Virus record (IMG/VR): IMGVR_UViG_3300010354_000308 | Location: 1 to 33,610 of that record | Reading direction: 5' to 3' (one strand) | Origin: a virus | Length of the DNA stretch: 33,610 bases | Shown here: piece by piece, positions 1 through 22,257 of the stretch | Layout of the letters: each line of letters begins with the position of its first letter | Position numbering within the stretch: the first letter of the stretch is position 1 | Notes under the pieces: generated by a model | What the model was told of the DNA's origin: nothing | The model's input: the letters and a program-made list of their open reading frames with translations, nothing else | The model's database searches: none | Made by a program: the position numbers and the translations under genes

Positions 1-198
1 ACCGCTTCTAAACTCGATCTGCTGATTGCTGACACACAGGGTAGCATCCGTTACACGGTTCTGCCTACCTCTCACAAAGGTGCAAAGGCTGCTCGACAGG
101 GTTGGGCACCAGCTGCTCCCAAAGGGGCATTCCTTCATGGTGCTATTGCTGATGCCGCAGCAGTGAGTAAGAACAACAAGGCATCTAAGGCCGCTTGA
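1..198 (+). CDS. 3' end of an unrecognised gene (partial)
   Basis: Frame 1 is open from the first base to a TGA at 196-198, giving 65 residues of a protein whose start lies outside the window. The visible part contains LIADTQGSIRYTVLP and ends in an Ala/Lys-rich tail (ASKAA). It is rich in Ala, Gly and Lys and uses many G/C-ending codons, unlike the AT-rich structural genes downstream. I see no motif that identifies a family, no membrane segment and no recognisable domain. It is followed within about 10 bases by a terminator-like hairpin (209-239), which suggests that it closes a transcription unit. The function is unknown; the coding call rests on the uninterrupted frame, the biased composition and the position of the hairpin. 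Confidence 0.7.
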   Translation, partial: TASKLDLLIADTQGSIRYTVLPTSHKGAKAARQGWAPAAPKGAFLHGAIADAAAVSKNNKASKAA

Positions 199-208
199 GT
201 ATAGCACA

Positions 209-239
209 GACCCTCGGAGTTCTTGACACTCTGGGGGTC
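209..239 (+). terminator. Terminator-like hairpin after the first gene
   Basis: The arms GACCCTCGGAGT (209-220) and ACTCTGGGGGTC (228-239) pair over 12 positions, two of them G-U, around the 7-nt loop TCTTGAC. The tract that follows (TTATGTTAT) is only moderately U-rich, so termination strength is uncertain. It lies 10 nt after the TGA of the upstream gene, the usual place for an intrinsic terminator. Its loop and 3' arm also carry the -35 box and spacer of a promoter. Confidence 0.6.
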
Positions 240-251
240 TTATGTTATACT
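223..251 (+). promoter_or_regulatory. Near-consensus sigma70 promoter
   Basis: TTGACA at 223-228 (perfect -35) and TATACT at 246-251 (5 of 6 to the -10 consensus) are separated by exactly 17 nt. Transcription would start near 258, giving a leader of about 200 nt before the first small gene at 460. A host-type promoter implies early transcription by unmodified host polymerase, unlike the phage-type late promoters elsewhere in the window. Confidence 0.75.
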
Positions 252-459
252 GCATTTGAGCAGTTAATTCTGCGGTCTTATGTGTAGCGCGGGGGCGCGA
301 TGATGCGGTTATAAAAACGCTAACTACCCTAACCTACAACGGACCAAAATCGAGAGCGAGATATAAGGATTCTAAAAAAATTTCTGCCGGCTGTAAAAAC
401 CCTACAAGGTCGCTCAGAGAAACTCGAATACATACTTTATGGAGAGTTGAGATCTGCAC
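252..459 (+). other. Gene-free leader with possible RNA structure
   Basis: No reading frame of useful length exists here on either strand. Several complementary pairs lie downstream of the inferred start near 258: GCAG 260-263 with CTGC 270-273; TAGCG 285-289 with CGCTA 318-322; and a longer arrangement TCGAG 350-354 with CTCGA 423-427 stacked on AGCGA 355-359 with TCGCT 410-414. It could be a structured 5' leader or a small RNA. No tRNA-like cloverleaf was found. Pairing was judged by eye only. Confidence 0.4.
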
Positions 460-3100: not shown

Positions 3101-3517
3101 ATGGCACTTACTCCTCGATCAATAACTACTTCTAGGGGATTTAAAGATATTAGTTTGTCTTTTATTAGACATCCAGTGACTAATGATGTAGTGACACTCA
3201 GGAATGAAGATGCTATTAAAAGATCTGTAGTGAATTTAGTTAGAACTAATATAGGTGAACGATTTTTTAACCATTTACTTGGAACAAGTTTGGATGGATC
3301 TTTATTTGAAATTCAAACTCCTGAAGTTGCTTATTCCATACAATCTGAAATTGAAACTCTTTTGAGTAATTTTGAACCTAGAATCATAACGGAAGAGGTC
3401 ATAGTATCTTTTCCATTTGATTCTAATGAAATGTCTGTAATGATTCGTTATTCAATAGTTGGCCAATCGGCCCCGGCTCAAGAAATAGATTTCCTCTTAC
3501 AACCAACTAGAATATAA
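3101..3517 (+). CDS. 25: Baseplate wedge subunit gp25
   Basis: The 138-aa product belongs to the GPW/gp25 family of contractile-tail baseplates. Diagnostic parts are TNIGERFFNHLLGTSL (49-64), the family's helix-Gly-turn element with G-E-R, and the hallmark E-P-R triad at 92-94 followed by I-I. Length is close to T4 gp25 (132 aa). In T4 and related contraction machines, gp25 sits at the inner wedge, joins the gp6/gp7 core bundle and primes sheath polymerisation. Its TAA shares one base with the ATG of gp6 (TAATG), so the two are translationally coupled, which suits subunits of one complex. No Shine-Dalgarno is visible. T4 keeps gene 25 away from gene 6, so adjacency here follows the P2-like arrangement (W then J). 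Confidence 0.93.
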   Translation: MALTPRSITTSRGFKDISLSFIRHPVTNDVVTLRNEDAIKRSVVNLVRTNIGERFFNHLLGTSLDGSLFEIQTPEVAYSIQSEIETLLSNFEPRIITEEVIVSFPFDSNEMSVMIRYSIVGQSAPAQEIDFLLQPTRI

Positions 3518-5385
3518 TGGCATTTAATCAGTTCACTAATTTAGATTTTGATAGTCTTAAAATTCAGATCAAAAACTATCTTAGAACAAATTCAAATTTT
3601 ACTGATTTTGATTTTGAGGGTTCTAATTTTACAACCCTTATAGATCTTCTTGCGTACAATACATACATCACCGCCTACAACACTAACATGGCGGTTAATG
3701 AATGTTTTCTGGATAGTGCAACATTACGTGAAAATGTAGTTGCTCTTGCAAGGAATATCGGATATGTTCCTAGATCGAAAAGATCAGCAAAAGCATCGAT
3801 TACTTTTACTGTAGACTTATCAGATAATGATACAAGACTTGTAACTCTTAAAGCAGGTCCAGTAGTATTGGGTAGTGTTCAATCAGGCACTTACATCTAC
3901 TCAATACCAGAAGATTTTGTCACTACGAAAAACGATGACCTTAAAGCAACATTTGTTGATTTGCCAGTATATGAGGGAATTTATTTAACTAAAACTTTTA
4001 CAGTTGATTACTCTTTACCAAACCAAAGATATATTATTCCAAACCCAAATGTAGATACTACATCCATTAGGGTTAAGGTTACTTCATCTACAAGTGAAAT
4101 ATATGAAAATTATAGTAATGTTCTAAGTGTTAACTCAAGTTCTAAAGTATTTCTTATTCAGGAAATTGAAGATGAAAAATATGAAATCCTATTCGGAGAT
4201 AATATCTTAGGTAGAAAACCACCAGCTGGCAGTACGATTGAAGTAAGTTATATTGTAACCAATGGCAAAGAAGCAAATGGTGCAAGTAACTTTACTTTCG
4301 CTGGTGTTTTAAAAGATGATAGAGGACAGACAGTAACAAGTGGAATATCTTTTGTTACCACTACGCAATCTTCTGTTGATGGGGATGATATTGAGTCAGT
4401 AGAATCTATAAAATATTTGGCACCTAGAGTATACTCGGCTCAATTCCGTGCAGTTACTGCGAATGATTATAAAGCCGTTATCCCATCAATATATCCAAAT
4501 GTTCAATCAGTTACATCATATGGCGGAGAGGAATTAGATCCTCCAGAATATGGAAAAGTTTTTATATCAATTAAACCAAGAAATGGTAAATTCTTGTCTC
4601 AAATTACGAAGAACAATATTCTAAGACAACTTAAACAATATTCTATTGCAGGAATTCAACCAGTTTTAATTGACCTAAGTTATCTGTATGTCGAAGTTGA
4701 TTCTACAATTTATTATAATACTAACAGTGTTTCTGATCCAACTGCATTAAGAACTAAAGTTCTTAAAACACTCACTACATATTCGGAATCACCTGATGTT
4801 AATAGTTTCGGTGGAAGATTTAAATACAGTAAAGTTGTTGGTCTTATTGATGATAGTGATAAAGGCATCACTTCTAATATTACTAAAATAAAAATGAGGA
4901 GAGATCTTATTCCTTCCTTTAATGAATTTGCTACTTACGAACTTTGCTTTGGTAATAAATTCCACCAAAAAAGATCTGGATTTAGTATCAAATCATCTGG
5001 ATTTACGTATGCAAACGTGGAGGGTACGGTTTATGTTGGTGACATTCCAATAGATAGTAAAAAGGGCAGACTTATATTTTTTAAATTGGAAAATAATGTT
5101 CCTCTTATTGTTAAGACTAATGCAGGAACTGTTGATTATGAGAAAGGTGAATTGATCCTAGATGTTGTCAAAATAACTGGAACTTCTCTTGATAGTGGAG
5201 TTGTTCAAATTGAAGCAATTCCAGACTCTAATGATATTATTGCTTTGCGGGATTTGTATTTGCAAGTAGACATTCCAAATAGCAGAGTAAATACTCTACA
5301 GGACGTTGTATCTTCTGGAGAAAATACTTCCGCAACTCAATACATAACAACGTCAAGTTATCTAAACGGATCATATACGAGATAA
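3517..5385 (+). CDS. 6: Baseplate wedge subunit gp6 (baseplate J-like)
   Basis: The 622-aa protein is near the size of T4 gp6 (660 aa). Two family regions are clear. Near the N-terminus a helical segment (about 34-86) contains LIDLLAYNTYITAYNTNMAV, then ATLRENVVALARNIGYVP, the J-family pattern in which helices end in a G-Y-x-P turn. Around 300-350, APRVYSAQFRAVTANDYKAV matches the usual A-R-x(n)-A-V-T-x-x-D-Y motif. In T4, two gp6 chains pair with one gp7 to form the wedge core and the ring that irises open during contraction. It starts one base inside the end of gp25 and ends 4 nt before the 2977-aa gene, so gp25, gp6 and the gp7 candidate form one tight operon. Confidence 0.93.
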   Translation: MAFNQFTNLDFDSLKIQIKNYLRTNSNFTDFDFEGSNFTTLIDLLAYNTYITAYNTNMAVNECFLDSATLRENVVALARNIGYVPRSKRSAKASITFTVDLSDNDTRLVTLKAGPVVLGSVQSGTYIYSIPEDFVTTKNDDLKATFVDLPVYEGIYLTKTFTVDYSLPNQRYIIPNPNVDTTSIRVKVTSSTSEIYENYSNVLSVNSSSKVFLIQEIEDEKYEILFGDNILGRKPPAGSTIEVSYIVTNGKEANGASNFTFAGVLKDDRGQTVTSGISFVTTTQSSVDGDDIESVESIKYLAPRVYSAQFRAVTANDYKAVIPSIYPNVQSVTSYGGEELDPPEYGKVFISIKPRNGKFLSQITKNNILRQLKQYSIAGIQPVLIDLSYLYVEVDSTIYYNTNSVSDPTALRTKVLKTLTTYSESPDVNSFGGRFKYSKVVGLIDDSDKGITSNITKIKMRRDLIPSFNEFATYELCFGNKFHQKRSGFSIKSSGFTYANVEGTVYVGDIPIDSKKGRLIFFKLENNVPLIVKTNAGTVDYEKGELILDVVKITGTSLDSGVVQIEAIPDSNDIIALRDLYLQVDIPNSRVNTLQDVVSSGENTSATQYITTSSYLNGSYTR

Positions 5386-5389
5386 TAAC

Positions 5390-6110
5390 ATGTCAGCAGA
5401 AATAAAAAGAGTTAAAGTTGGACATTTAATTGAATCCCAAATTCCTTCGTTTTTAAATGAAGAGTCTCCACTATTCAGAGAATTTTTAGAGACTTATTAC
5501 ATCTCTCAGGAACACCAGGGTGGTGTTCTAGATTTGTCTAGTAATATTGACAAATATACTAAGGGCACATCATTTAACAGAGAAACTTTAATTCCATATG
5601 GTGTATTGCTGCAGTCCATTAATCCAGGTGATGGTACGATTGTAGTTAATTCTACAATTGGTTGGCCAGATCAGTATGGGTTATTGAAAATTGGTGATGA
5701 AATAATTACGTACACTAGAAAAACCGATAATACGTTTGAGGATTGTTATAGGGGATTTAGTGGTATTGATCAAATATCTCAAGATACTGATGTTGAGTTT
5801 TTGAGTTTTTCCCTGACAGATTCATCTAGTCATGAAGCCGGAAGTATTGTTTACAATTTAAGTAATTTATTCCTGCAAGAAATATTTGTAAAGTTTAAAA
5901 GTCAATTCTTACCTGGATTTGAAAATAGAAATTTTATCGAGGGCATCAACTTAGCCAATATCTTATCCAGAGCCAAAGATTTTTATAGCGCAAAAGGCAC
6001 AGATACTTCATATAAATTACTCTTCAAAATTCTGTACGGCGAAGAAATCCAAATTATTAAGCCACAGGAATATACTCTAACACCTTCAGATAATACTTAT
6101 TTTGTAACTA
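5390..6110 (+). other. P2 gpI-like (gp7/Tri2-like) wedge domain
   Basis: Residues 1-240 of the giant protein. A helix containing SPLFREFLETYY and a later helical block, FLQEIFVKFKSQFLPG followed by AKGTDTSYKLLFKILYGEE, match the pattern of tail protein I family proteins, in which an (S/A)-K-G-T-x-x-S/T-(F/Y) turn precedes an L-F-x-x-L-(Y/F)-G-E-E helix. An IGDEIITYT beta module is inserted between these parts (about 80-130). Confidence 0.6.
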
Positions 6111-9100
6111 AGAATGTTCTTGTAGAAAAGATTTTTGGAACTGGTGATCCAATCTTATCGAAGGGCAATTTCTTATATCAAAATATAACTGGAATTGGAA
6201 CTGTAAGTGCTTCAATTTATAACGTAGAATATAGACCTATTAAAAACAAAGATTTTTATGAGATATCTTTGGATTCCTCGTCATTTGATGGCCAATTTGT
6301 AGCGCCAGGAAAAACAAAAATTATTGAAACTACTCCACAAAACTCTACAGCTATTCTTGTTGATTCTACTTTAGGTTTTGAGAGATCAGGAAACCTTCTT
6401 ATTAAACCAACACCTACATCCGAATATATTACTATATCTTATCAAGATAAGACAATCAATCAATTTTTGGGAGTTTCTGGAGTCACAACTGAATTTTCTT
6501 TTGGTGCAGATATTACAGAAGATCGCTTAGCTTATGCTTATGTTGGTTTAGGTCAAACTTCAAAGGTAGATTTGAGGTTGGTAAATGTTATTGATACTGT
6601 TGAAACTACTCAAACTTCTAATATGAGGGTTGGGGATACTTTGGTATTGTCATCTTTTGGATTTGATTTAATTGATGATCCTAAATTTAATAGTTGGGTT
6701 TATAATGTCCCAACAAAACATATCATATCAAACGTACTTCAACAAAACCAAAATACGTTTAGAGTGCAACTTTATGATTCTATCGTATTCAGCATTGGAG
6801 AATCAGTTTATATTCTGAATTCCAATAATGAGAAAGTTAGAGGTGTGGTGAAGAGTATTGAGTATTCTTCTGGAGATACAATAAAAATTAAATCAAATAC
6901 TATTATCGTACAGATTTCTGGTACTCTTCCATCAAATCCATATCAAATTGAAAAAATAGTAGTTAAAGCGAATCATAACTCAAATTATTTTCCACAACTT
7001 TCCGACATTTCTGTGGGTATACAAAACTCATATTTGGACTTTGATGAAAAAAATATGTATGTTGCGACTAGTGGCATACCTAACTATCCTATTTTTGCGA
7101 CGGACAACAAAATTTTCATTAAAACTGGATCAAATCAAGATGGAATAGTGACACTTGTCAGTTCATTGGATCCATTAAACAATACTCCTTTTGATCATAA
7201 CTTAGTTACTGGTGATAAAATTTATTGGAATAATACCACTAACAGTGGATTGTCTACTGGCGTTTATTTTGTTACTTCTGTTAATAGAACCCAGTTTAGA
7301 TTATCTTATAGTAATACAGACGTTTTTGCTAAAAAATATGTCCCCATTAAGTCGGATCTTCCTGGACAATATATTTACAAATCTGGATTCGAAAACAAGA
7401 ATGCTTCCCATCAAAAGTTATTAGGAAAATTTCCATATACTAAAGAAGTTACATTATTTGATGATAAGTCAAAAAGAACTACAAGTAACAGACCAATAGG
7501 TCTCATGGCAAATGGAGTAGAGTTGTATCCATCTACTGTATTTGACGAAGAAATATTTTTTGGAAAAATAGAATCTATCAAAGTTACAAATCCAGGTAAA
7601 GATTATGATGTTATAAATGGTCCACCAATAGTCATCCAAGATGACCTTGGTACAGGCGCAAAAGCTTATGCAAACGTAGTTGGATCATTTAAAGAAATTA
7701 AATTAATAACACCTGGTATTGGTTATCAGGAAAAACCAAAAATAACTGTTTCTGGTGGTAATGGACGTGGAGCAGTACTGGAGTCCAATTTAGTTAGGGG
7801 TAGAATCATTGTATCATTTAAAGCTGATGGAAATTCAGTAAACGTTTCTTCTGATACTATTGATTTCCCAATCAAACATAATTTTGAATTAGGCGAAGAG
7901 ATAATTTATGATTCTGGTGGAAATACTGCTATAGGTGGACTGGTAGATGATTCCAGTTACTATGCTAGACCAGTAGATCCATATACCATTTCCTTACATA
8001 TCACACCAAAGGATGCTATTTCTGGTATCAATACAGTTAACATTGGATCTGTTAGTTTAGGATTTCATAACTTCAAAACTCTAAACAGTAAGAATACAAT
8101 TACAAAAATATATGTAAAAGATTCTGGAGAGGGATATTCTAATAAACAAATTAGAGTTCCTGCAAGACCAGTTAATGGGGATACTCAAACTGGAATTAGT
8201 ACAGCTGATAATTACTTTTTTGCCCCAGGTCATGGATTTTTGGATGGTGAAATCGTAGTCTATGATTATATTGGAACTTCTGCCAATGGATTATCTACAA
8301 CTACAGAATATTATGTACACAAGATAAACAACGATAAGTTTAAACTTTCTAATGCTGGAGTTGAGACTTCTAGAACGCCTGGCAACTTTACTTCAAAAAA
8401 ATATGCAAGAATCTCTGGAGTCGGGAATGGAACTCATATTATTAAATATCCACCTATTAGGATTAATGTAGAGACTCTTGCTGGCATCTCTTCTACGGGT
8501 ATCGTAAAACCTGAAATTGATCCAATAGTGCTTGGTTCAATTCAAAGTGTTTATATTGAAGATAATGGTATTGGATATGGATGCACAAACATTATCAATT
8601 ATCATAGAAGACCAAATGTTGGTATATCTACTGTAACATCAAAAGCTTTGATAAAACCAATTATTGTTAATGGTAGTATTCTTGATGTTCAAATTCTTGC
8701 TCGTGGATCTGGATATAGAAAAGATTCGGAAATTATAGTATACGATAACACGGAAAAGGGAGTTTTTGCTCAATTAATTCCTGTTATTGAAAATGGAAAA
8801 TTGCAATCTGTTAAAATTATAGATGGAGGCCTAAACTATAATCCAGCTACTACTGGATTAGAATTGAGAAATAGAGGAACAGATGCTAAATTTATTGCTG
8901 ATGTTACGAAATGGACTATTAATCAACAGATAAAAAGTTCAACTTTAATCAATAATGAAGATGCTTTATTGACAAAACCCAATGATAGGGGACTTCAATT
9001 TATATCCTTATATTTCCCCAATAAGTTAAGATTCCAGTTAAGTGATAATATTGATTCTGGTAATATAGAACTTACGACTAGTTCGAATCACTCGCCTATT

Positions 9101-12100
9101 CTTGGATGGGCCTATGATGGAAATCCAATTTATGGTCCATATGGATTTTCTGGTGCTACGAGTGGATCTATTCGAAGAATAACCAGTAGTTATGAATTAG
9201 ATATTACTACAAAACCTGGAATACGACCACCAGGATTTACCCCTGGATATTTCGTTGATGATTTTTATTACAATGCATCTGGGGACCTAGATGAGCATAA
9301 TGGTAGATATTGCATTACTCCCGAATTTCCAGATGGAATATATGCATATTTTTATACCGTAGATATTGATTCTAGTGGAGTGTCTGTTCCCAAATTCCCA
9401 TATGTTATGGGAAGGTATTTTAAAGATCAACCACTATTGGAAAATTTTGATTCAAACTTTAATCAAGATTTGGATATAACCCAATTTAATTTAATTAGAA
9501 ATGTTGGACCTTATTATTTGAATAGTTCCGGCAGTAACTATGATGTAATCGATAAAGTAACTGATGCAGCAAAACAGGAATTCAAAGTAACCAACATCAA
9601 AACATCTGGTATTGGATCCGTAACAGTATTTTCGCCAGGAAGTGGATACAGAGTTGGTGAAGTATTGCAGTTAGACAATACTGGAACTGATGGTACGGGT
9701 ACAAACGTTGTAATTTCTCACGTTAAAGGAAAGGCGATCGAGATTATTAATGTAGGTGTCTCTACAATTACAGATGTCAAAATGCAGGTGATTAATAATA
9801 GAATCATTGGAGTTACTACGGATCCACATGGATTCTCTGACGGAGAAACTGTAATCATCAGTGGACTTTCCACTTCTCGTCTTTCTATTATTGAAGGCCC
9901 ACGTAAACTTAGTGTTCTGAAAAGAAGTGTAGGACTAACTGAATATCTTCCAAATTCAAATACAACTGGAATATCAACTTACATCCCAGTTACTGATGTA
10001 CGAGGATTTTCCATTAATGATGTAATTGGCATTGGAACCGAAGTGATGAGAGTTACTTCGATTGATGAACAGTTTTCTAGATTGGGAGTAAACCGCCAAG
10101 TAGGAGTTTCATTAACACATACTAGTGGAACAAATAATGTTAAATTATTACCTACTAAGTTTGAGTATTATATTCCAAAGGGAATTAATTATGCTACATT
10201 TGAAAATAACGTCAGATTCTTTGATCCTCATTATACTATTGGCATTGGTTCTACTGGAACGAATTATAGAATAACTTCTACTGGAATTGGCACAACAACT
10301 ACCCAAACCATTACTAATAGATTTGTACCAGAAAAATCAATTTATGTAAAAAATCATCCATACTATACTGGACAGAAATTAATTTATAATCCAGGGATTG
10401 GTGGATCTAGCATTGTTTATTCGTCAACTGGATATGGATCTACCAGTGGAATTGGAACAGAGAGGCTTTCAGCTGGAACTGAAGTATATGCAATTAATTT
10501 GGGTGTAGATTATCTTGGTATTTCTACCGTTGGTTTCCCCACGGAAGGAAATGCAGTATATTTCTTTGGACAAGGTGAAGAAGTTGGATATGCACATTCA
10601 TTTACGTCTACATTCCCAGAGATAACAGCCGTTGCAGAGAATTATAGTGCATCAGTAAAAACAACAAATAACCACGGACTGTCTACTGGTGATCTTGTAT
10701 CTCTTACAAGTCTACCAAAACAACTTGAAAGAGTGGCTCTTAGATATGATCCTGTTATTTTAAAAATAACGACCGAACGAGTATCATTCTCTAGTACTAC
10801 TTTCTCTAATGATTTGACAAGCTTTAAAATTGATACTCAGAAATTTAATAGTGGAGATAAAGTAGTTTACTATGCAAATGGAAATACAATTGGTGGATTG
10901 GTTGATAATGAAATTTATTATGTATTGAAGGATGCCCCAGATAGAATTAAATTGTGTAGATATCTTAGCGATGTTAAAGAATCTAATGCAATTGTCATGT
11001 CTTCTGTTTCATTGGGCACTTACTATCTTGCAAAAATAAATCCACCAATTACTGTTAATAGGGGAAATGTATTAGAATTTGATTTGTCCGATCAAAGTCT
11101 ATCTAATATGCGATTGGATTTTTATGAGGATATTAATTTTAGGAATAATCTAGACATTTCTGGTACTTCAGAAAGTGGTTTCTCCATTTTACGTGAAGGT
11201 GTTGTTGGTACTGTTGGTGCTAGAGTCATAATTTCCACGGTAACGGAGTTTCCTAAAAAGTCATTTTATAATTTAACTCCAATTACTCCAACGGATGTTA
11301 GAAAAAATCAAATCACTAGTGATGATAGTATTCCAGGAAGAAATTCTATAACAATTAATGATAGTATTTTGAGTGGAAATCACGCAATTGTTGTTGCTGA
11401 TTCCAAAAATTTCTCTTTCAATTTGATTAAAAAACCAGCATTCTATGAAAATTTCATAACCAAGTCGGGACTATCGACTGTATATTACGAAACAGATTCA
11501 CCATTTGCAGTTGGCCCTGTATCTAGGACAAAGATTAATTTCCCAGGTAAAGGTTATTCTAAACTACCAAAGGTTATTGGATTTGAATCTATTTCAGGTA
11601 AAGATGCAGTTATTAAAATCAATAGTGGGAGAATTGGTCAAATTGATTCTATGGAAAGGGTAAAAGATGGATTTGATTATCCTACTGACCCAACCCTACT
11701 TCCATTTTTAAGTGTTCCGACAATATGCGATATAAGTGGAATATCTAGAATATCTAGAGTCGATATTACGGATGGTGGAAGGAATTATCAGCAACCACCC
11801 AGACTAGTTGTTTTGGGAAATACTAAAGTAAAACTAGATGCTGTTGTAAATGGAGGTTCTGTAGTCGATGTAATAGTTAAAGAAAACGCATATGAATTTA
11901 CAGAACCGTTACCTGTTATTCCAGTTACTAATTCTAATGGATATGATATTGATACGATCACTCATTCAAGTAATCTAGTAACTTTAGAATTACTTTTAGA
12001 CCCACAATTTAATAAACCAGTTACTGCTGGATATGCAACATCTGAAGTTAAATTCCCATTTGCTATTGGAGATAGAATTTATATCGAAGGGTGTAGATTG

Positions 12101-14323
12101 AAGCCAGATTCTGTAAATTTGGGTGAATTGAACTTTAATTCTATTGATTATGGATATAGATTCTTCGATGTAGTTGGCATCAATACATTAAATTATACCG
12201 TTACTTATAGTATGGTTGGGATTGCCACTGGAACTTTAGGTGCATATGACGATGACTTCACCTTAGGTTCTGTCATCAATGAAAATGACATGGCTAAATT
12301 TAGTATGAAAATTATTGACGATTCTTCTTATGTTTCTGGTGAAAAAGTTATATCTAAAAAGTTTACTGCTAATGTAACTGAAAATGGTTATGACAGTGAC
12401 ATAAATCAACTTAGATTAACTAATAGTGTAGGTGAATTAAGAGTTGGTGATGTATTGTACGGGGAACAATCAAAATTAGTCGGTAAAGTCGAAGCAGTTA
12501 ATAAATTTAATATTAGAACAAGATTGGGAATTACAAGAGATAAACTTGGGGATATTGATAAGTCAAAAGGAATATTGAATGAGTATCTTCAAAGAATATC
12601 TGATAATTTTTATTATCAGAAGTTTTCTTACTCTATTAATAGTTCTATACCATATGATTCTTGGAAAGAATCGGTTAGGTCAATCATTCACCCATCTGGA
12701 TTTAGAGAATTTTCAGATTTAAAAATATTTGGTGATCCACAAAAAGATGCAAAAACATTTAATTATGTAAATGTTGGGTTGGCTAAGTCAACTAATATGA
12801 AGGTTAAGGCAATTTCTCAAGATGTGTCTTTAATTATTAATATTGATAATGAAGTTTACATGGGCACCAAATCAAACTTTGCTATGATAACTGAGGATGA
12901 TCCTCTTCCAGACAATTCTATCCAAAGAATTTTCTTCCCTGAGGGTAGACCACTTAAGGGTTATATTTTAAATAAAACTAACAAAGTTTTGAAACTAGAT
13001 GATATAAGTAATGGATTTAATGGAAGATATGATAGAGCAGGAAACCTAATTGGAAATACTCAGTTTAAATTAACAACAAAGAATGGAGTTCCCGTTTTTA
13101 GATCCACATTCAATTCAGCGTCATCATCTGTCGTTGATTTAGTTAATAATGTAATTAGCATTCCTAATCATAATTTCCAAAGTGGACAAGAATTGGTCTA
13201 TGATACTCAAGGAGGTACAGTTCTCGGTATTGCAACTACATCTCACACAACAGGCACAAGAGATATTGTCATGTCTGTTACTGGTGCCGGCGGCAGTGCA
13301 TTATTTGAAAATGGATACAATTTCTCTGTTGTTGGTCCAGTTGTTGGTATATCCACTACTGCAAGTCCAATAGTTGGAGCAAAAGTATTTGGATTTGGTA
13401 CTGGAATCCCTGGAATATCTACTTATGGAACTGGAGCTAAGTTTGAGGTTCTCATCACCTATAGTGAATCTACAGGAGTTCCAATTTCTACCAGTATTTT
13501 ACTGAGAGAGGGTGGATATGGATATCAAGTTGGGGAAACTGTAAGTATAGCTGGTACTTTTATGGGGGGAACTTCCCCAACTAATGATCTATCTTTTGTT
13601 GTAACAAAAGTAGCAAGTACTAGAGCTGGAATACAGACGGTGTACTCAAATGTACCTTCTACTAATGATGGTTCTGGGTCTGGAGCAGTGTTTAATGTAG
13701 AAAGAGATGTCAATACTGATATATCCAAAGTAACGGTCGTTACAGGAGGTTCTGGTTATGCTGGAACTAATACAATTTCTATTGCAGGAACTTACATTGG
13801 AGGATCGACTCCTACCGACAATTTGTATTTAACTCCAACCGAATTGGGAAGTAATGTAATGCCTTCTACAGTCTATGTTCAAAAAATAGACGATGTTAAA
13901 TTTAGACTATCTGGTCTCACTACCTCATTGGCATTTGATATTGTTGGTCTTGGTACTGGCACCCATCTACTTAGATATGCCAATCCAACTCAAAATTCTT
14001 TAATTTTGGTTGATGGTATAATTCAAAGTCCAATTCGTAATAAAAAACTATCAGTGAGTGTTACAGCTCCTGTTGGAACTGAAGATCAACAAATAACAGT
14101 TGGCGCAGGTATAAATTCTCTTGGAACAGATGATTTGATCAAGATTAATGACGAATACCTAAAAGTAAAATTCATCGGTAAGGGATCATTTGTTATTTCC
14201 AGAACTGCTGATGTCGAAACTACAGTGGACCAGAATTTTTATTATGATAAGAATAGAGCTAATTCTACGGTCACCTCTGTGGACAGTACGTTAGTTACTT
14301 CTGATGATAGACCTCCATATTAA
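5390..14323 (+). CDS. Giant baseplate protein, 2977 aa, with gpI-like N-terminus (gp7/Tri2 candidate)
   Basis: The frame is unbroken for 8.9 kb. The N-terminus (1-240) carries IPSFLNEESPLFREFLETYY (18-37) and, near 183-221, NILSRAKDFYSAKGTDTSYK then LLFKILYGEE and a T-P-S-D-N turn. This resembles the P2 gpI / tail protein I family, the counterpart of gp7 in the wedge triplex. The rest is beta-rich: repeated GxGY segments, at least six H-x-(L/F)-x-x-G-(D/E) repeats (His 603, 830, 948, 1480, 1762 and 2594), and a YHYH-like domain at about 1210-1345. No signal, membrane or coiled-coil segment is obvious. It directly follows gp6, where T4 has gene 7 (1032 aa). Inference: it acts as gp7 at its N-terminus and extends outward as a large arm or fibre. 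The virion-protein role is very likely; the gp7 equivalence is moderately likely. Confidence 0.88.
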   Translation: MSAEIKRVKVGHLIESQIPSFLNEESPLFREFLETYYISQEHQGGVLDLSSNIDKYTKGTSFNRETLIPYGVLLQSINPGDGTIVVNSTIGWPDQYGLLKIGDEIITYTRKTDNTFEDCYRGFSGIDQISQDTDVEFLSFSLTDSSSHEAGSIVYNLSNLFLQEIFVKFKSQFLPGFENRNFIEGINLANILSRAKDFYSAKGTDTSYKLLFKILYGEEIQIIKPQEYTLTPSDNTYFVTKNVLVEKIFGTGDPILSKGNFLYQNITGIGTVSASIYNVEYRPIKNKDFYEISLDSSSFDGQFVAPGKTKIIETTPQNSTAILVDSTLGFERSGNLLIKPTPTSEYITISYQDKTINQFLGVSGVTTEFSFGADITEDRLAYAYVGLGQTSKVDLRLVNVIDTVETTQTSNMRVGDTLVLSSFGFDLIDDPKFNSWVYNVPTKHIISNVLQQNQNTFRVQLYDSIVFSIGESVYILNSNNEKVRGVVKSIEYSSGDTIKIKSNTIIVQISGTLPSNPYQIEKIVVKANHNSNYFPQLSDISVGIQNSYLDFDEKNMYVATSGIPNYPIFATDNKIFIKTGSNQDGIVTLVSSLDPLNNTPFDHNLVTGDKIYWNNTTNSGLSTGVYFVTSVNRTQFRLSYSNTDVFAKKYVPIKSDLPGQYIYKSGFENKNASHQKLLGKFPYTKEVTLFDDKSKRTTSNRPIGLMANGVELYPSTVFDEEIFFGKIESIKVTNPGKDYDVINGPPIVIQDDLGTGAKAYANVVGSFKEIKLITPGIGYQEKPKITVSGGNGRGAVLESNLVRGRIIVSFKADGNSVNVSSDTIDFPIKHNFELGEEIIYDSGGNTAIGGLVDDSSYYARPVDPYTISLHITPKDAISGINTVNIGSVSLGFHNFKTLNSKNTITKIYVKDSGEGYSNKQIRVPARPVNGDTQTGISTADNYFFAPGHGFLDGEIVVYDYIGTSANGLSTTTEYYVHKINNDKFKLSNAGVETSRTPGNFTSKKYARISGVGNGTHIIKYPPIRINVETLAGISSTGIVKPEIDPIVLGSIQSVYIEDNGIGYGCTNIINYHRRPNVGISTVTSKALIKPIIVNGSILDVQILARGSGYRKDSEIIVYDNTEKGVFAQLIPVIENGKLQSVKIIDGGLNYNPATTGLELRNRGTDAKFIADVTKWTINQQIKSSTLINNEDALLTKPNDRGLQFISLYFPNKLRFQLSDNIDSGNIELTTSSNHSPILGWAYDGNPIYGPYGFSGATSGSIRRITSSYELDITTKPGIRPPGFTPGYFVDDFYYNASGDLDEHNGRYCITPEFPDGIYAYFYTVDIDSSGVSVPKFPYVMGRYFKDQPLLENFDSNFNQDLDITQFNLIRNVGPYYLNSSGSNYDVIDKVTDAAKQEFKVTNIKTSGIGSVTVFSPGSGYRVGEVLQLDNTGTDGTGTNVVISHVKGKAIEIINVGVSTITDVKMQVINNRIIGVTTDPHGFSDGETVIISGLSTSRLSIIEGPRKLSVLKRSVGLTEYLPNSNTTGISTYIPVTDVRGFSINDVIGIGTEVMRVTSIDEQFSRLGVNRQVGVSLTHTSGTNNVKLLPTKFEYYIPKGINYATFENNVRFFDPHYTIGIGSTGTNYRITSTGIGTTTTQTITNRFVPEKSIYVKNHPYYTGQKLIYNPGIGGSSIVYSSTGYGSTSGIGTERLSAGTEVYAINLGVDYLGISTVGFPTEGNAVYFFGQGEEVGYAHSFTSTFPEITAVAENYSASVKTTNNHGLSTGDLVSLTSLPKQLERVALRYDPVILKITTERVSFSSTTFSNDLTSFKIDTQKFNSGDKVVYYANGNTIGGLVDNEIYYVLKDAPDRIKLCRYLSDVKESNAIVMSSVSLGTYYLAKINPPITVNRGNVLEFDLSDQSLSNMRLDFYEDINFRNNLDISGTSESGFSILREGVVGTVGARVIISTVTEFPKKSFYNLTPITPTDVRKNQITSDDSIPGRNSITINDSILSGNHAIVVADSKNFSFNLIKKPAFYENFITKSGLSTVYYETDSPFAVGPVSRTKINFPGKGYSKLPKVIGFESISGKDAVIKINSGRIGQIDSMERVKDGFDYPTDPTLLPFLSVPTICDISGISRISRVDITDGGRNYQQPPRLVVLGNTKVKLDAVVNGGSVVDVIVKENAYEFTEPLPVIPVTNSNGYDIDTITHSSNLVTLELLLDPQFNKPVTAGYATSEVKFPFAIGDRIYIEGCRLKPDSVNLGELNFNSIDYGYRFFDVVGINTLNYTVTYSMVGIATGTLGAYDDDFTLGSVINENDMAKFSMKIIDDSSYVSGEKVISKKFTANVTENGYDSDINQLRLTNSVGELRVGDVLYGEQSKLVGKVEAVNKFNIRTRLGITRDKLGDIDKSKGILNEYLQRISDNFYYQKFSYSINSSIPYDSWKESVRSIIHPSGFREFSDLKIFGDPQKDAKTFNYVNVGLAKSTNMKVKAISQDVSLIINIDNEVYMGTKSNFAMITEDDPLPDNSIQRIFFPEGRPLKGYILNKTNKVLKLDDISNGFNGRYDRAGNLIGNTQFKLTTKNGVPVFRSTFNSASSSVVDLVNNVISIPNHNFQSGQELVYDTQGGTVLGIATTSHTTGTRDIVMSVTGAGGSALFENGYNFSVVGPVVGISTTASPIVGAKVFGFGTGIPGISTYGTGAKFEVLITYSESTGVPISTSILLREGGYGYQVGETVSIAGTFMGGTSPTNDLSFVVTKVASTRAGIQTVYSNVPSTNDGSGSGAVFNVERDVNTDISKVTVVTGGSGYAGTNTISIAGTYIGGSTPTDNLYLTPTELGSNVMPSTVYVQKIDDVKFRLSGLTTSLAFDIVGLGTGTHLLRYANPTQNSLILVDGIIQSPIRNKKLSVSVTAPVGTEDQQITVGAGINSLGTDDLIKINDEYLKVKFIGKGSFVISRTADVETTVDQNFYYDKNRANSTVTSVDSTLVTSDDRPPY
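7190..13330 (+). repeat. Degenerate H-x-L/F-x-x-G-D/E protein repeats
   Basis: Six clear copies occur in the 2977-aa protein: HNLVTGDKIYW (603), HNFELGEEIIYD (830), HGFLDGEIVVYD (948), HGFSDGETVIIS (1480), HGLSTGDLVSL (1762) and HNFQSGQELVYD (2594). A seventh lacks the His (KFNSGDKVVYY, 1818). Several continue with a GGL turn and a YYV strand. The DNA has diverged, so these are old protein-level repeats rather than DNA direct repeats. Confidence 0.7.
9002..9424 (+). other. YHYH-like domain inside the giant protein
   Basis: Residues about 1205-1345. GWAYDGNPIYGPYG (1239-1252), DLDEHNGR (1299-1306) and TPEFPDGIYAYFYT (1310-1323) follow in the order typical of the YHYH domain. The eponymous Y-H-Y-H is replaced by Y-A-Y-F at 1318-1321. 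The domain's biochemical role is unknown; in a baseplate protein it may be a binding or structural insert. Confidence 0.65.
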
Positions 14324-14353: not shown

Positions 14354-15370
14354 ATGGCTAAACAGGGTATTAGTACGGGAACAACTCCCAATGATGGGAC
14401 TGGAGATACATTACTTGCAGCTACGTTAAAAATTAATTCAAATTTTAACGAAGTATATAACGTGTTTGGTGATGGCAGTAATCTTGTAAGTTTTGTTTCA
14501 TACGCAACCACTGCGGGGTATTCTACTGCATGTGGGGTTGCTTCTACATCAACTTATGCTCAGGTTTCTAGATTTGTAACTACAGATATTAGTATTAATT
14601 CTACAGGTGTATCTACCTTTAGTTATACTGATACTGGTGGAATAATTATTGAGAAATTTGGTGTACCTGCAAACACTCCGTTTCAAGTTGGATTTGCTGG
14701 TACTATGCTTAGGGTTGAAAAATCAAAAGTTGGAGTGGGAACATCAGCTCCAACTTCTCAATTTGAAGTTGTTTCGTATGATCCAGAAATACCTGTATTG
14801 CAAGTAACTCCTAAGAGTAATGGACACGCAATACGTGTTTCTCAAAATCCAGTAGTAAATTCTACTAGTTTTGTAGTTACAAAAGATGGTAAGGTTGGAA
14901 TAGCTTCGACTGCACCACAATCACATTTAACGGTTACGGGAGATGTTTCTGTAACTGGAATTTCTACATTCACGGGAACTACACATTTAAATGGGTCTAT
15001 TACTGAAAAAGTAATTGGTAATTTTTCTAGTTCTTTAACTGCTATTGGTGGAACCTTAACCGTAGACGTATCTCAAGGAACGGTAATACTTGGTGGATTG
15101 ACAACCTCGGTAACAACTTGGGCATTTACAAATGTAAGTACATTGAATGGTAAAGCAACCACCGTTACGATTATTAATGATGCAGGTGCATCTGCAACAT
15201 ATGGTGACCTTTGTAGAGTAAATGGATCTCTTATTTCTGGTGGAATTCGTTGGGTTGGGGGCAATCCACCGCCATCAACAAATCAGGAAGATATATTAAC
15301 TTTCAGTATCATCCGAGATGGTTTTGGCGAAACACGGGTTTATTGCAATAGTTCTTTAAATATTAGTTGA
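14354..15370 (+). CDS. Tail-fibre-like protein, 338 aa
   Basis: The N-terminus (GISTGTTPNDGTGDTLLAAT, then LKINSNFNEVYNVFG) is the common phage fibre or baseplate attachment motif P-N-D-G-T-G-D followed by a K-I-N-x-N-F helix. The middle holds trimeric-fibre repeats: KVGVGTSAPTSQFEV near 125 and KVGIASTAPQSHLTV near 184, then GISTFTG. The C-terminus has a GGIRWVGGNPPP segment and ends in RVYCNSSLNIS, a terminal domain that recurs in cyanophage fibre proteins. There is no catalytic motif or membrane segment. Family knowledge suggests a homotrimeric short fibre or spike attached to the baseplate. It sits between the gp7 candidate and the propeller protein and has its own late promoter. The fibre label is secure; receptor binding is inferred. 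Confidence 0.82.
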   Translation: MAKQGISTGTTPNDGTGDTLLAATLKINSNFNEVYNVFGDGSNLVSFVSYATTAGYSTACGVASTSTYAQVSRFVTTDISINSTGVSTFSYTDTGGIIIEKFGVPANTPFQVGFAGTMLRVEKSKVGVGTSAPTSQFEVVSYDPEIPVLQVTPKSNGHAIRVSQNPVVNSTSFVVTKDGKVGIASTAPQSHLTVTGDVSVTGISTFTGTTHLNGSITEKVIGNFSSSLTAIGGTLTVDVSQGTVILGGLTTSVTTWAFTNVSTLNGKATTVTIINDAGASATYGDLCRVNGSLISGGIRWVGGNPPPSTNQEDILTFSIIRDGFGETRVYCNSSLNIS

Positions 15371-18300: not shown

Positions 18301-20631
18301 GGAAGTAGAATAGTCTTTAGTGAAGCTCCAAAAGAAAATTCAAAGTGTTCTGTGTTCTACTATAGGGGTTCTGATGCTGATGTGGAACTTATTGAACCCA
18401 TTCCCACTATCAAACCTGGTGATGTGGTACAAATTAAAGAGAATAAAATAGATCTTCTTGATAGAGATCAGTTCCCAAGAACTACAAAGAGAATCGTTGC
18501 TTCCGATGTGATGGAAACATTCACATATGATAGTGTTGGAATTGATACTAACCAAGATAATGAAAGACCTCTAAGTTGGGAAAAACAAAAAGTAGATAAA
18601 ATTCTAACAGGAGTATATTACTCTAAATCTAGACTTAATAATAAAGCTAAAGTTTCTCCAGCAACATATCCAATTAAAGATATTGGACCAACAGATACTA
18701 AGATCTATGTAGCAAATGCATTCCCAGTTTTTAGTGAAGTTGATTTACTAGTCGAATCTGAAAGACATCTGAAGATTTTTGAGAACCTTGATATATCTCC
18801 TGCTTTGGTAACTTCAAGAGTATCTGCATCTTCAAGTATTTCATCTTTAAGTATAGCTTCTTCTGGATCTGGATATTTCAATATTACTAATCCAATAGTT
18901 TCTATATCTGGCGCTAAGATTACAAGAAAAGATCCGATTCGGGACTGGAAATTTGATGTTATTACTTCTATTTCTACTTCCATAAGTCTAAATGGAATAA
19001 CTAGGTCTCTACCCGTAGTTGCGGTTGGTGATAGTAGTCAATTCATCAATACATTAAGTGGAACTTTTTGGGAAAGAGGTAAAATTGGATTTGGGGATAC
19101 CATAACATTTAATGCAATTGACGTTGCTTCGGATAAAAGGACATTGTTAACGGTCGGCGAATATGGCAAAGCAGCAAAAGCTGTATCTTATGGAACCACA
19201 GTATCTACTTGGACTCCAATATCTCTTAAAGAGGAAAGACAGATTCCTGCTATTGGACTTAGTGTCATATTTGATTCTACTTATGAAGGAACCTTTAATG
19301 ATGTTATGTATGAATCCACCAATGATTCTTGGGTTGCCGTTGGTTTGGGGGGAAGTATATTCAATGGAGTTGGAATTGGTACAACAACATTGTTTAGTCA
19401 ATATTCTGGCACAATTCAAGGTTTATATGCAGTCACACATGCTCAAAATGAATTCATAGCTGTTGGAAATGGTGGAATAATCCTCGCATCAACAACGAGT
19501 AAATTCTGGTCACAAAAACAAAGTAATACAGTACAAAACTTAAGAGATATAATTTATGATGGACGAAGATTCATTGCAGTCGGTGATTCGGGGACAATTG
19601 TAGTTTCCTATGATAAGAATTATTGGGAACCATTTAGTACTATTAATGCAGCTGTTGCTGTAAATCCAGCAACATTTAACTTTAGAAAAATAAAATTCGT
19701 TGATAATTTATACATTGCATTAAGTGCAACTGGAGAACTTTACTATTCTCTTGATTTAATTAACTGGATTATTAGAGAAACAAATCAAAATCAACCCGTA
19801 AATAACATAGCATTTACTCCTTTTGGTAGAGAAAATAGATTTATTGCTGTTGGTGGTGCAGCTACAGTATTTTACGCTGATCCAATTTATAACAGAGCAG
19901 CTGCGGTTTCTTCCGTATCTAATGGAATAGTTACATCAGTAACTATCATTAATGGTGGATTTGGATATGAACAATTCAGTTCGCCACCAGTATTGGTTGA
20001 ATCTGATACCACTAAAGAAGAAACATTATTTTCATATAAAACCAAAGGAGATTTTGGTACTATAGTTGGCATTAATACTCAAATTCCAGGACAATCTATA
20101 AATGGTCTTGCTCCTAGACTTGAATTCCAACTTAAGTCCGAATTTAATGATAACACTAATTTGGGGTATGGATATTCTTCACTTAATGTTTTTGGAGTAA
20201 ATAATAGTCAACTTGAAATTGGGGATTACTTCATCATCTACGATAGTCCAGTTGTAGTGGGTCATGCTTTAACTGGAATAAGTACACATATTGGTGGATT
20301 AAATAACTATCCCGTAAATAAAGTAGGTGTTGCATATTCTACTATTAATGGAGTCTATAGAGTAGATTCGGTAACTTCCGCCGATATAACAAGTGGGATT
20401 GTTACAGTAACTTGTTCTTTCCTTCCAGGTCCAAATAGTAGCAACCAAATACAAGTTGGTGTTGGTACAACGGCATTAACTCCATATTATGGGAAATATT
20501 CTTGGGGTATAATCTATGACTATCAAAATAGATCTGTAGGAAACCCTCAACAATTTTTTGTGAACCCCGATAATGGTTTAGTCGGATTTTCTACCGCTCC
20601 TTTGATCACTAGAACTAAACCATTAACATAA
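15382..20631 (+). CDS. Giant virion protein, 1749 aa, with probable beta-propeller
   Basis: Starts 11 nt after the fibre gene, with GAGG at 15369-15372 as ribosome site. The protein opens with GSGY-type beta repeats (IEVVFGGSGYAKTDPPKISI near 25-45). It has an LDDI..F.G module twice (about 164-241 and 909-998), H-G-Y/L repeats in the middle, and between about 1205 and 1505 seven copies of an h-A-V-G-x-x-G-x-(I/V) signature. Those copies, spaced 39-62 residues with Trp-ending strands in most, indicate a seven-bladed propeller of the BNR/Asp-box kind. GSGY repeats resume after it (GGFGYEQFSSPPVLVE). Propellers in virion proteins often bind glycans or, if sialidase-like, cleave them; no catalytic set can be assigned. 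It lies just before gp8, so a baseplate-attached adhesion protein is likely. Confidence 0.82.
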   Translation: MPTRVTPGSGAVLRPFFDSDYGVEKIEVVFGGSGYAKTDPPKISIQGTQTPITEGVFYPVISGVGTIREIVIFNPGAGYYPVFSTTTGGQVFVERGVFGTSPGVHTAGVSSVFSGDYNIIQDNIYFSSPPYGKTGLVGLETGSTFTGRIFSRKLDPNETKDKNLIFDDISLEFTGVAGTEFKLTENLSNVTAAYNSVNAGSDINNNPFILINNVSQTPGLDFTVVDSDENKINFLSGVPRAGRITKVGLTTGSGYYSLLPAAGVVGVGTTGTITKVKLTGVGQGYRTPPKCTIRSSQGSGGLVTAYLGTLDPNTYNISTAVYNRYVGIVTFTTSTSHGYSTGERVRVVGVGFTFPAISTARNINTFEYDPVTGIASISVFGGHYIGTDTNSSRHILVTQVQVTNGITTFTFREDGYPIISVGSTNNVQINCGVGTTALTYVGGGLVQAGIDTGILESVNRVGFDILGVTTNTFEVFVGLSTFNLSYTSGGVVQKNQVGLVTGLSIIDPGQNYYVSHNVAYVDYEPSSGVTTITGYGKQLGITTTIANVYYTPTTGIATIMSTNTHGLQINDVIRLSGIGFSTPLGDTTFPYNSNEFYAVKSIVSTLEFTVDIGISTVGIHTHQQLTGTWTLYEGHGLKTDDFAIVSGIAMTTNYWPPVSIQNVTYDNITGIATITTDSDHYLEQRDFVLLSGIAMTCGYDNGVGVVTFPRTTDPAYNGVFVTNVGTSTVFSVNVGPSTITHYSFTSGGTVQHAVRYPTPYAAAYDLISEQYGDGFYVLEVYDAAKFRVQSGLLTSRYIYNRAGTIEKPVSLDIASPNPYFNLPLQYPTGIVGFGTTGIGVQSKCDLSINISGEIGVFDVTEEGVGYKVGDRLRVSGISTDVRVGILTEFELTVLEVANDKFFGFYPGQFILFDDISKFFNGVRKKFTLSVTTGGVTSILSLKTEPGTDLDITNNIFIYINDILQTPGDSYIFRGSRIVFSEAPKENSKCSVFYYRGSDADVELIEPIPTIKPGDVVQIKENKIDLLDRDQFPRTTKRIVASDVMETFTYDSVGIDTNQDNERPLSWEKQKVDKILTGVYYSKSRLNNKAKVSPATYPIKDIGPTDTKIYVANAFPVFSEVDLLVESERHLKIFENLDISPALVTSRVSASSSISSLSIASSGSGYFNITNPIVSISGAKITRKDPIRDWKFDVITSISTSISLNGITRSLPVVAVGDSSQFINTLSGTFWERGKIGFGDTITFNAIDVASDKRTLLTVGEYGKAAKAVSYGTTVSTWTPISLKEERQIPAIGLSVIFDSTYEGTFNDVMYESTNDSWVAVGLGGSIFNGVGIGTTTLFSQYSGTIQGLYAVTHAQNEFIAVGNGGIILASTTSKFWSQKQSNTVQNLRDIIYDGRRFIAVGDSGTIVVSYDKNYWEPFSTINAAVAVNPATFNFRKIKFVDNLYIALSATGELYYSLDLINWIIRETNQNQPVNNIAFTPFGRENRFIAVGGAATVFYADPIYNRAAAVSSVSNGIVTSVTIINGGFGYEQFSSPPVLVESDTTKEETLFSYKTKGDFGTIVGINTQIPGQSINGLAPRLEFQLKSEFNDNTNLGYGYSSLNVFGVNNSQLEIGDYFIIYDSPVVVGHALTGISTHIGGLNNYPVNKVGVAYSTINGVYRVDSVTSADITSGIVTVTCSFLPGPNSSNQIQVGVGTTALTPYYGKYSWGIIYDYQNRSVGNPQQFFVNPDNGLVGFSTAPLITRTKPLT
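18994..19881 (+). repeat. Seven-bladed beta-propeller-like repeat region
   Basis: The signatures are VVAVGDSSQF (V1212), LLTVGEYGKA (L1255), WVAVGLGGSI (W1317), FIAVGNGGII (F1358), FIAVGDSGTI (F1397), YIALSATGEL (Y1444) and FIAVGGAATV (F1487). The intervals of 43, 62, 41, 39, 47 and 43 residues fit propeller blades. The C-terminal copy lacks the final Trp strand, which the first copy could supply if the ring closes by strand exchange. Confidence 0.7.
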
Positions 20632-20661: not shown

Positions 20662-22257
20662 ATGCCTGCCATTATATCAGATCAATTTAGAATTCTTAAC
20701 GCAGAAACTTTTGTTCAAAGTTTTGTTGGTGTAGGATCCACAGTAAACAAATATTATGCATTTATTGGTTTACCTGGATCTACAAATACAAAGGCTGGTG
20801 GAACACCAGATTGGAATACTAATACTCCTTCTCCATTGGATGGATTTAAAGAGGAGAATGAAATTAAAGAATCTGTTATTGCTATGAAGAAAATAACAGA
20901 TAGAGATGTCAGGAGATTAGTACGAAAAGTGCAATGGACAGCAGGACAAACTTATGAAATGTATCGTCATGATTATAACATATATAATTTGACTCCAATA
21001 ACTAGTCAAGCTAGTTTGTACGAATCAAATTATTATGTAATTAATGAAGATCTTAGGGTGTATATATGTCTTCAAAATGGATCAGATCCAGAGAACCCAA
21101 AGGGTAGACCTTCGTATGACCAACCCACATTTATTGACCTTGAACCAAGGGCAGCTGGTACTAGTGGCGATGGTTACGTTTGGAAATATCTTTACACGAT
21201 TAAACCATCGGAAGTAGTTAAATTTGATTCTATCGAATATATTCCCGTCCCAGAAAATTGGGGATTTGAAGGAGAATCAATTTCAACGAGAGGAAATGCT
21301 ATTGATGGAAAAATTGAAGTAATTGTCGTTAATAACAGAGGATCTAGTTATCAGCCAATTTCTACTTCATTCTCAAACGTTCCCATTTTGGGGGATGGTA
21401 CTGGAGGTAAAGCTACTATTACTATCGATTCTTTTGGTAAAGTTTCTGAAGTTTTTGTTACAGATGGGGGATCTGGTTATACTCACGGAAGTATTCAATT
21501 TTATCCTGGAGCTCCAGGAAGTGAACCAGGTGGTTCTTTAGAAAATTTAACAAATACTGGAATTGGAACGACATCCAGAGCTAGATTTGATGTTATTATT
21601 CCACCAAAAGGCGGACATGGTGCAGATGTTTATAGGGAACTTGGAGCTTATAGAGTTTTACTCTATACCCGATTCGAAACTTTGGAAACAAACCCAGATG
21701 TTATCGAAGGTAACGATTTTGCCAGGATTGGAGTTATAAAAAATCCTACAGTCTTTGGCAGTAGATATGAACTTCTAGATGCCTCTATTGTCAGTGGACT
21801 TAAATCATTAAAATTAGTTGGACTTGCAACTCAGACTACGTATGCAGTTGATTCAACAATTACACAAACCGTTGGTTTAGGATCTACTGCCATTGGATTG
21901 GTTGCGGCTTGGAATCCAACTACGGGTGTTCTGAAGTACTATCAACCAATGGGATTGGCATCTAGTGAAAGTGGTTATAAGATTATCCCATTTACTTCAA
22001 ATCCTTCCGCTGGTTATGGATTAACGATTAATTGTTCTTCTATAACAGGACCAGTTTTACAAATTAATAATGATTTTACAGGTGTTTCTACATCAATAAA
22101 TAACACGACATATCAATTAGGAGTCAATTTTGTTGCTGGAATTGCTTCTGCTGAGTACAGCACAAAGTCTGGAGAAATTATCTACATAGATAATAGGATT
22201 GCTATTCCTAGGTCCTCAAGTCAAAAAGAAGATATTAAGATTGTACTGGAGTTCTAA
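20662..22257 (+). CDS. 8: Baseplate wedge subunit gp8, enlarged form (531 aa)
   Basis: Three anchors match T4 gp8 in order: GDGYVWKYLYTIKP (170-183; T4 has GDGYVWEYLFEI), GNDFARIGVIKNP (350-362; T4 has a GFRQISIITNP segment) and the C-terminal GEIIYIDNRIAIP ending KIVLEF (T4 GEMIYMENR ending ILFTF). In T4, gp8 is a dimer that joins the wedge periphery to gp7 and gp10. T4 gp8 is 334 aa; most of the excess here is a beta insertion at about 212-320 made of GSGY-type repeats (NNRGSSYQ, then TDGGSGYTHG), the same module found in the giant neighbours. It has its own late promoter and ends 6 nt before the DUF4815 protein. Confidence 0.9.
   Translation: MPAIISDQFRILNAETFVQSFVGVGSTVNKYYAFIGLPGSTNTKAGGTPDWNTNTPSPLDGFKEENEIKESVIAMKKITDRDVRRLVRKVQWTAGQTYEMYRHDYNIYNLTPITSQASLYESNYYVINEDLRVYICLQNGSDPENPKGRPSYDQPTFIDLEPRAAGTSGDGYVWKYLYTIKPSEVVKFDSIEYIPVPENWGFEGESISTRGNAIDGKIEVIVVNNRGSSYQPISTSFSNVPILGDGTGGKATITIDSFGKVSEVFVTDGGSGYTHGSIQFYPGAPGSEPGGSLENLTNTGIGTTSRARFDVIIPPKGGHGADVYRELGAYRVLLYTRFETLETNPDVIEGNDFARIGVIKNPTVFGSRYELLDASIVSGLKSLKLVGLATQTTYAVDSTITQTVGLGSTAIGLVAAWNPTTGVLKYYQPMGLASSESGYKIIPFTSNPSAGYGLTINCSSITGPVLQINNDFTGVSTSINNTTYQLGVNFVAGIASAEYSTKSGEIIYIDNRIAIPRSSSQKEDIKIVLEF

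Follow-up and report, generated by a model that had tools for sequence, protein, structure and literature searches.

The window, the whole 33,610-nucleotide stretch of IMG/VR record IMGVR_UViG_3300010354_000308, comes from a T4-like virus of marine cyanobacteria and carries a block of baseplate genes in the order gp25 (3101-3517), gp6 (3517-5385), N-terminal half of gp7, connector, C-terminal half of gp7 and gp8 (20662-22257). The gp7 halves, the connector and all features of the propeller described below lie on the plus strand. An unbroken 1749-aa ORF (P0001; 15382..20631) matches PHROG 2885 'baseplate wedge subunit' (2e-126), and its homologue in S-SSM7 is annotated as gp7. The 2977-aa ORF (5390..14323) shares a short segment with T4 gp7 (aa 193-223 against T4 residues 729-759, E 0.002). 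Between these two ORFs lies a gene for a 338-aa tail-fibre connector of the gp9/gp10-N type (14354..15370; Pfam T4_gp9_10_N, 2.9e-8; PHROG 677). In most cyanophages examined gp7 is a single giant ORF, and the counterparts of the 2977-aa and 1749-aa ORFs are fused into one gp7 in S-CAM9, S-SCSM2R, S-8S56, S-B05, P-SSM2 and others. A split gp7 with the connector gene between its halves was found in the window, S-SSM7 and Sf-FS3. Together with the match to PHROG 2885, the continuous ORF in relatives and the gene order therefore identify the 1749-aa ORF, by homology, as the C-terminal half of a T4-like gp7, the initiator protein of the baseplate wedge; it is not the free adhesion protein that a sequence-only reading had taken it for. 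The carrier shares with T4 gp7 the PHROG wedge family, the short match given above and the gene order. T4 gp7, however, has 1032 aa, is encoded by one gene and has no propeller, whereas the gp7 of the window comprises 2977 + 1749 aa in two genes. The N-terminal half also contains a YHYH domain (PF14240, 4e-25) at 9074-9367 (aa 1229-1326). A connector-like gene follows gp7 in S-B05 and S-SCSM1, where it was seen. Upstream of the baseplate genes, a 252-aa ORF (1036-1794) matches PHROG 1574 (function unknown) and, more weakly, a glycosyltransferase.

Residues 1182-1505 of the 1749-aa protein (18925..19896) are predicted to form a seven-bladed beta-propeller. AlphaFold2 was run on aa 1100-1749 with 28 sequences (the window and 27 IMG/VR relatives) and, with 20 sequences, on the isolated domain. 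Both models contain seven blades of four strands each, the domain-alone model has a pLDDT of 87.9 and a pTM of 0.88, and the Foldseek matches are propellers. We regard the predicted seven-bladed fold as secure. The complete ring had been proposed from seven signatures spaced by 39-62 residues, and this proposal was borne out. A scan of aa 1205-1502 with the pattern [AT][VL][GS]xx[GAS] found exactly seven occurrences (aa 1214, 1257, 1319, 1360, 1399, 1446 and 1489; spacings 43, 62, 41, 39, 47 and 43), whereas in 5000 shuffled versions of the domain the count averaged 0.34 and did not exceed 4; the strict form AVGxx[GA] occurs four times against a shuffle mean of 0.03. According to the blade assignment each blade holds one signature, which forms strand B and the tight B-C turn. 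By pattern scan and blade assignment, the ring is composed of blade 1 (18988..19083, signature VVAVGDSS), blade 2 (19108..19245, LLTVGEYG), blade 3 (19294..19401, WVAVGLGG), blade 4 (19423..19518, FIAVGNGG), blade 5 (19540..19632, FIAVGDSG, with the degenerate Asp box SYDKNYW), blade 6 (19681..19776, YIALSATG, with the degenerate Asp box SLDLINW) and blade 7 (19798..19887, FIAVGGAA).

In the models the ring is closed by pairing of the N- and C-terminal strands. The N-terminal closing strand (aa 1184-1193, DPIRDWKF..; 18931..18960) is the outer strand of blade 7 according to DSSP of both models and the blade assignment, and it lies within the part of the model (1..327) that VIA-align superimposes on closed rings. 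Its residue W1189 is nearly invariant. The domain begins near 18925, and the start at 18994 given earlier had left this strand out. Most signatures had also been expected to precede a strand that ends in Trp; blades 1, 2, 4, 5 and 6 conform, whereas blade 3 has no Trp and that of blade 7 is W1189, supplied by the closing strand. The propeller does lie between GSGY repeats, as had been noted. It is preceded by a module with GSGY at aa 1162-1165 (module aa 1145-1180; 18814..18921) and followed by a GSGY-type module with GFGY at aa 1526-1529 (module aa 1510-1545; 19909..20016), both of which are conserved in phages with and without a propeller.

In structural searches with the domain, ranks 1-5 among PDB entries in Foldseek are Ycf48 chains (E 6e-11 to 9e-10, 14-15% identity). 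The top match in VIA-align is virginiamycin B lyase (Vgb; Z 29.4, rmsd 2.7, 284 aligned residues), with WD40 seven-bladed rings close behind in a near tie; the alignments to Vgb, PLRG1 and RACK1 have Z scores of 27-29 over 277-291 residues. This near tie implies that the Vgb match reflects the shared fold, and geometry by itself points to no single propeller family. The near tie also bears on the possibility that the propeller is a glycan-cleaving or glycan-modifying enzyme, sialidase-like or lyase-like, which would open the cell surface. Propellers of other phages are known depolymerases, and both the geometric proximity to Vgb and the BNR/Asp-box style of the domain would be in line with such an activity. 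Sequence identity to Vgb is only 9-10%, however, no match to a family of known activity was obtained, and sialidases are six-bladed whereas this domain has seven blades. An enzymatic role is improbable.

The window propeller has no significant match in Pfam or among the PHROGs, and sequence searches of the PDB with the domain and with the domain profile returned no match. A propeller domain is not named in the Pfam, PHROG and record annotation seen, and PHROG 2885 (4179 positions) spans the propeller site without room for a propeller. Identity to the window propeller declines from S-SSM7 (56%) and Sf-FS3 (48%) to S-SCSM2R (34%), S-CAM9 (28%) and DSL-LC03 (27%). One scan of IMG/VR confirmed 101 relatives, and the propeller is common in viral metagenome data. 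The DSL-LC03 copy scores above the cut-off of Pfam PSII_BNR (PF14870; 30.6 vs 27 bits) and is alone in doing so; the domains of the window and S-SSM7 have no PF14870 match. The alignment of distant phage copies with 12 Ycf48 proteins from cyanobacteria extends over most of the sequence (hhalign probability 92, E 8e-7), whereas the window's own profile matches Ycf48 only locally (probability 59). Because DSL-LC03 passes the PF14870 cut-off and the distant copies align to Ycf48, the domain appears to belong, remotely, to the broad Asp-box/Ycf48-like propellers. The BNR/Ycf48-type style attributed to it earlier stands as far as the first five Foldseek ranks and the DSL-LC03 match are concerned, and is less apparent in its Asp boxes. 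The motif S/T-x-D-x-G-x-x-W at the C-D turn is present in the window only in degenerate form, in blades 5 and 6 and without the Gly, while relatives of the S-CAM9 type have the canonical Asp box STDNGLTW.

With Ycf48/HCF136 (PF14870; PDB 5ojr, 8am5, 2xbg) the domain shares seven blades, a repeat in the style of AVGxxGxIxxSxDGGxxW and the top Foldseek matches. Those proteins are thylakoid lipoproteins, however, and the window domain, at the low identity given above, belongs to a virion protein, falls below the Pfam cut-off and lacks the Arg patch. In Ycf48 this six-residue patch binds D1 (positions in PMC10403576). At the corresponding sites the distant phage set has A, K, N, N and V, the sixth site falling in a gap of the hhalign alignment to the 12 Ycf48 sequences; with five of the six sites aligned and none of them Arg, identity with Ycf48 was rejected. 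The idea that the phage mimics a host propeller is likewise unsupported by these sites. The phage would then have captured a Ycf48-like assembly factor with D1 of photosystem II as its binding partner. Such an origin would suit a virus whose hosts are cyanobacteria and a domain for which Ycf48 ranks first in Foldseek, but it agrees poorly with a position within a virion baseplate protein instead of a lumenal lipoprotein. Moreover, the phage propeller profile found no match in 12 cyanobacterial genomes, in a search that had no positive control; a WD40 control gave zero matches in every genome and was uninformative. We consider this scenario very improbable. Genome contigs scanned with the propeller of DSL-LC03 yielded no relative. 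Related propellers do occur in tail proteins of other phages, such as the tail fibre of Caulobacter KSC and a BNR protein of S-CBWM1. The similarity to these DUF6242 (PF19755)/BNR propellers (S-CBWM1, Limnohabitans DC31, Caulobacter KSC) is weak but significant and covers several blades (tblastn 1e-3 to 4e-5), although their carrier proteins and phage types differ from those of the window. A free-standing 400-aa ORF with a DUF6242-type propeller was also seen on another virus contig (L037:4728-5927, and L038); its best segment is 38% identical to the S-CAM9 propeller.

Comparison of 20 cyanophages, with the flanks of the propeller used as anchors for scoring presence and absence, shows the propeller to be optional and to be inserted always at the same junction, between the two GSGY modules. 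It is present in eight (the window, S-SSM7, Sf-FS3, S-SCSM2R, S-CAM9, DSL-LC03, S-8S56 and DSL-LC02) and absent from the other 12; because only some relatives carry it, the propeller looks like an optional add-on. Profile matches to near relatives of the model members arise by construction, and those to Sf-FS3, S-8S56 and DSL-LC02 are independent. The distance between the flanks is about 320 aa in carriers, compared with 8 to about 34 residues in the non-carriers with both flanks measured (S-B05, SynMITS9220M01, S-SCSM1, P-SSM2, S-T4, Bellamy and S-SM2), where the flanks are joined. Neither the flank downstream of the propeller nor the propeller profile was matched in S-SKS1, S-SRM01, P-TIM68, B23 and Sf-CH8, in which 211-377 residues remain vs 573-639 in the window. 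Seven carriers group in one supported clade of a tree built from the upstream flank; the eighth, DSL-LC02, sits apart from them on a long branch.

Among close relatives the conservation of the propeller is comparable to that of its flanks; its identity drops below that of both flanks in distant pairs only. A hypervariable host-range domain was rejected on this comparison; faster divergence than the scaffold is a usual, not strictly defining, trait of receptor-binding domains. Loop classes differ little in entropy (A-B loops 1.25, D-A loops 1.01), and therefore single out neither face as a binding site. Given that hypervariability is lacking, the main rival to a host-contact function is a structural one: the propeller might be a rigid spacer or docking platform for gp8, the connector or fibres within the baseplate, and never touch the host. 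Inheritance with the gp7 lineage and, in the lineage of the window, a connector gene flanked by the two halves of gp7 are in line with such a role, as are the contacts of T4 gp7, which binds gp9, gp8, gp10 and gp6 (PMC3004832). Yet the propeller is dispensed with in roughly half of the gp7 homologues compared, where the same flanks are joined directly, and other phages use a different cargo domain nearby. A structural role is less likely than host contact but is a serious rival.

Contact with the host envelope, with the propeller as an accessory surface module on the rim of the baseplate, is in our judgement the most likely role, at about even probability. Such a role fits because the rim position expected by analogy with T4, the absence of the domain from some relatives and the presence of other cargo nearby all agree with it. 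T4 gp7 is a peripheral monomer in six copies, and one of its domains swings outward when the baseplate is triggered (PMC3004832). As an accessory domain in the C-terminal part of gp7, a peripheral wedge protein of the T4-like cyanophage baseplate, the propeller may thus be displayed as six rings around the virion baseplate; rim position, copy number and host binding are all inferred. The rings would touch the host envelope at many points and with low affinity, through an outer-membrane glycan or protein, presumably via one face of the propeller. This contact could help to seat or orient the baseplate once the fibres have bound, and the main choice of host range would remain with the fibres. 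It counts against host contact that the propeller follows the gp7 lineage, with 7/8 carriers in one clade, and is not often swapped, as host-range modules usually are.

Propellers in phage baseplates are already known, with gp131C of phiKZ (PDB 4GBF), a seven-bladed propeller at the baseplate periphery (PMC4901313), as a precedent; the propeller described here is an optional insert in gp7. Both have seven blades and are carried by a peripheral protein of the baseplate in phages with contractile tails, and gp131C has been proposed, though not proven, to be a receptor-binding domain. It differs in phage group and carrier, which is not known to be gp7. The PDB search gave no sequence match to 4GBF, and the structure is absent among the best 50 fold matches listed. 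The receptor-binding propeller gp45 of phi11, with a GlcNAc-sized pocket, is likewise a baseplate propeller whose ring is closed by an N-terminal strand and which is thought to bind sugar (PMC4901313), but it has five blades and is a trimeric stand-alone receptor-binding protein directed at wall teichoic acid of a Gram-positive host. A search of the open-access literature gave no publication describing a propeller in the baseplate of a cyanophage. Little is known about host contact of T4-like cyanophages beyond the tail fibres. As a clade-specific domain with a fixed position in a core protein of the baseplate, the propeller offers a defined and testable candidate for a contact domain.

The tail of gp7 also accepts other cargo. 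In S-B43 the two GSGY modules are immediately preceded by a different insert of 322 aa (L131:6861-7826, containing EHVFHTLHMHGLP). Because it is absent from S-B05, whose gp7 is otherwise near-identical, and occurs in 85 phage records, Syn33 and S-RIM12 among them, the gp7 tail can be regarded as a recipient of extra domains. The S-B43/Syn33 insert (~320 aa) is unrelated to the propeller; it matched nothing in Pfam or the PHROGs and gave no significant match to PDB sequences. It may be, as we suggest tentatively and with somewhat less than even confidence, that the paired GSGY modules form a dock for alternative folded domains, which would show host-contact functions in six copies on the baseplate, separate from the tail fibres. 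The dock would hold the propeller in one clade, the unrelated ~320-aa domain in S-B43, Syn33 and S-RIM12, and nothing in others. Phages such as S-B43 and S-B05, whose near-identical gp7 genes have gained or lost cargo, provide natural pairs for testing domain function. A further observation concerns the gp7 of S-SCSM2R (L006:767-2341), which has about 500 extra aa that match short-tail-fibre PHROGs; this stretch lies within the region matching the N-terminal gp7 half of the window and marks a second place for the uptake of extra domains.
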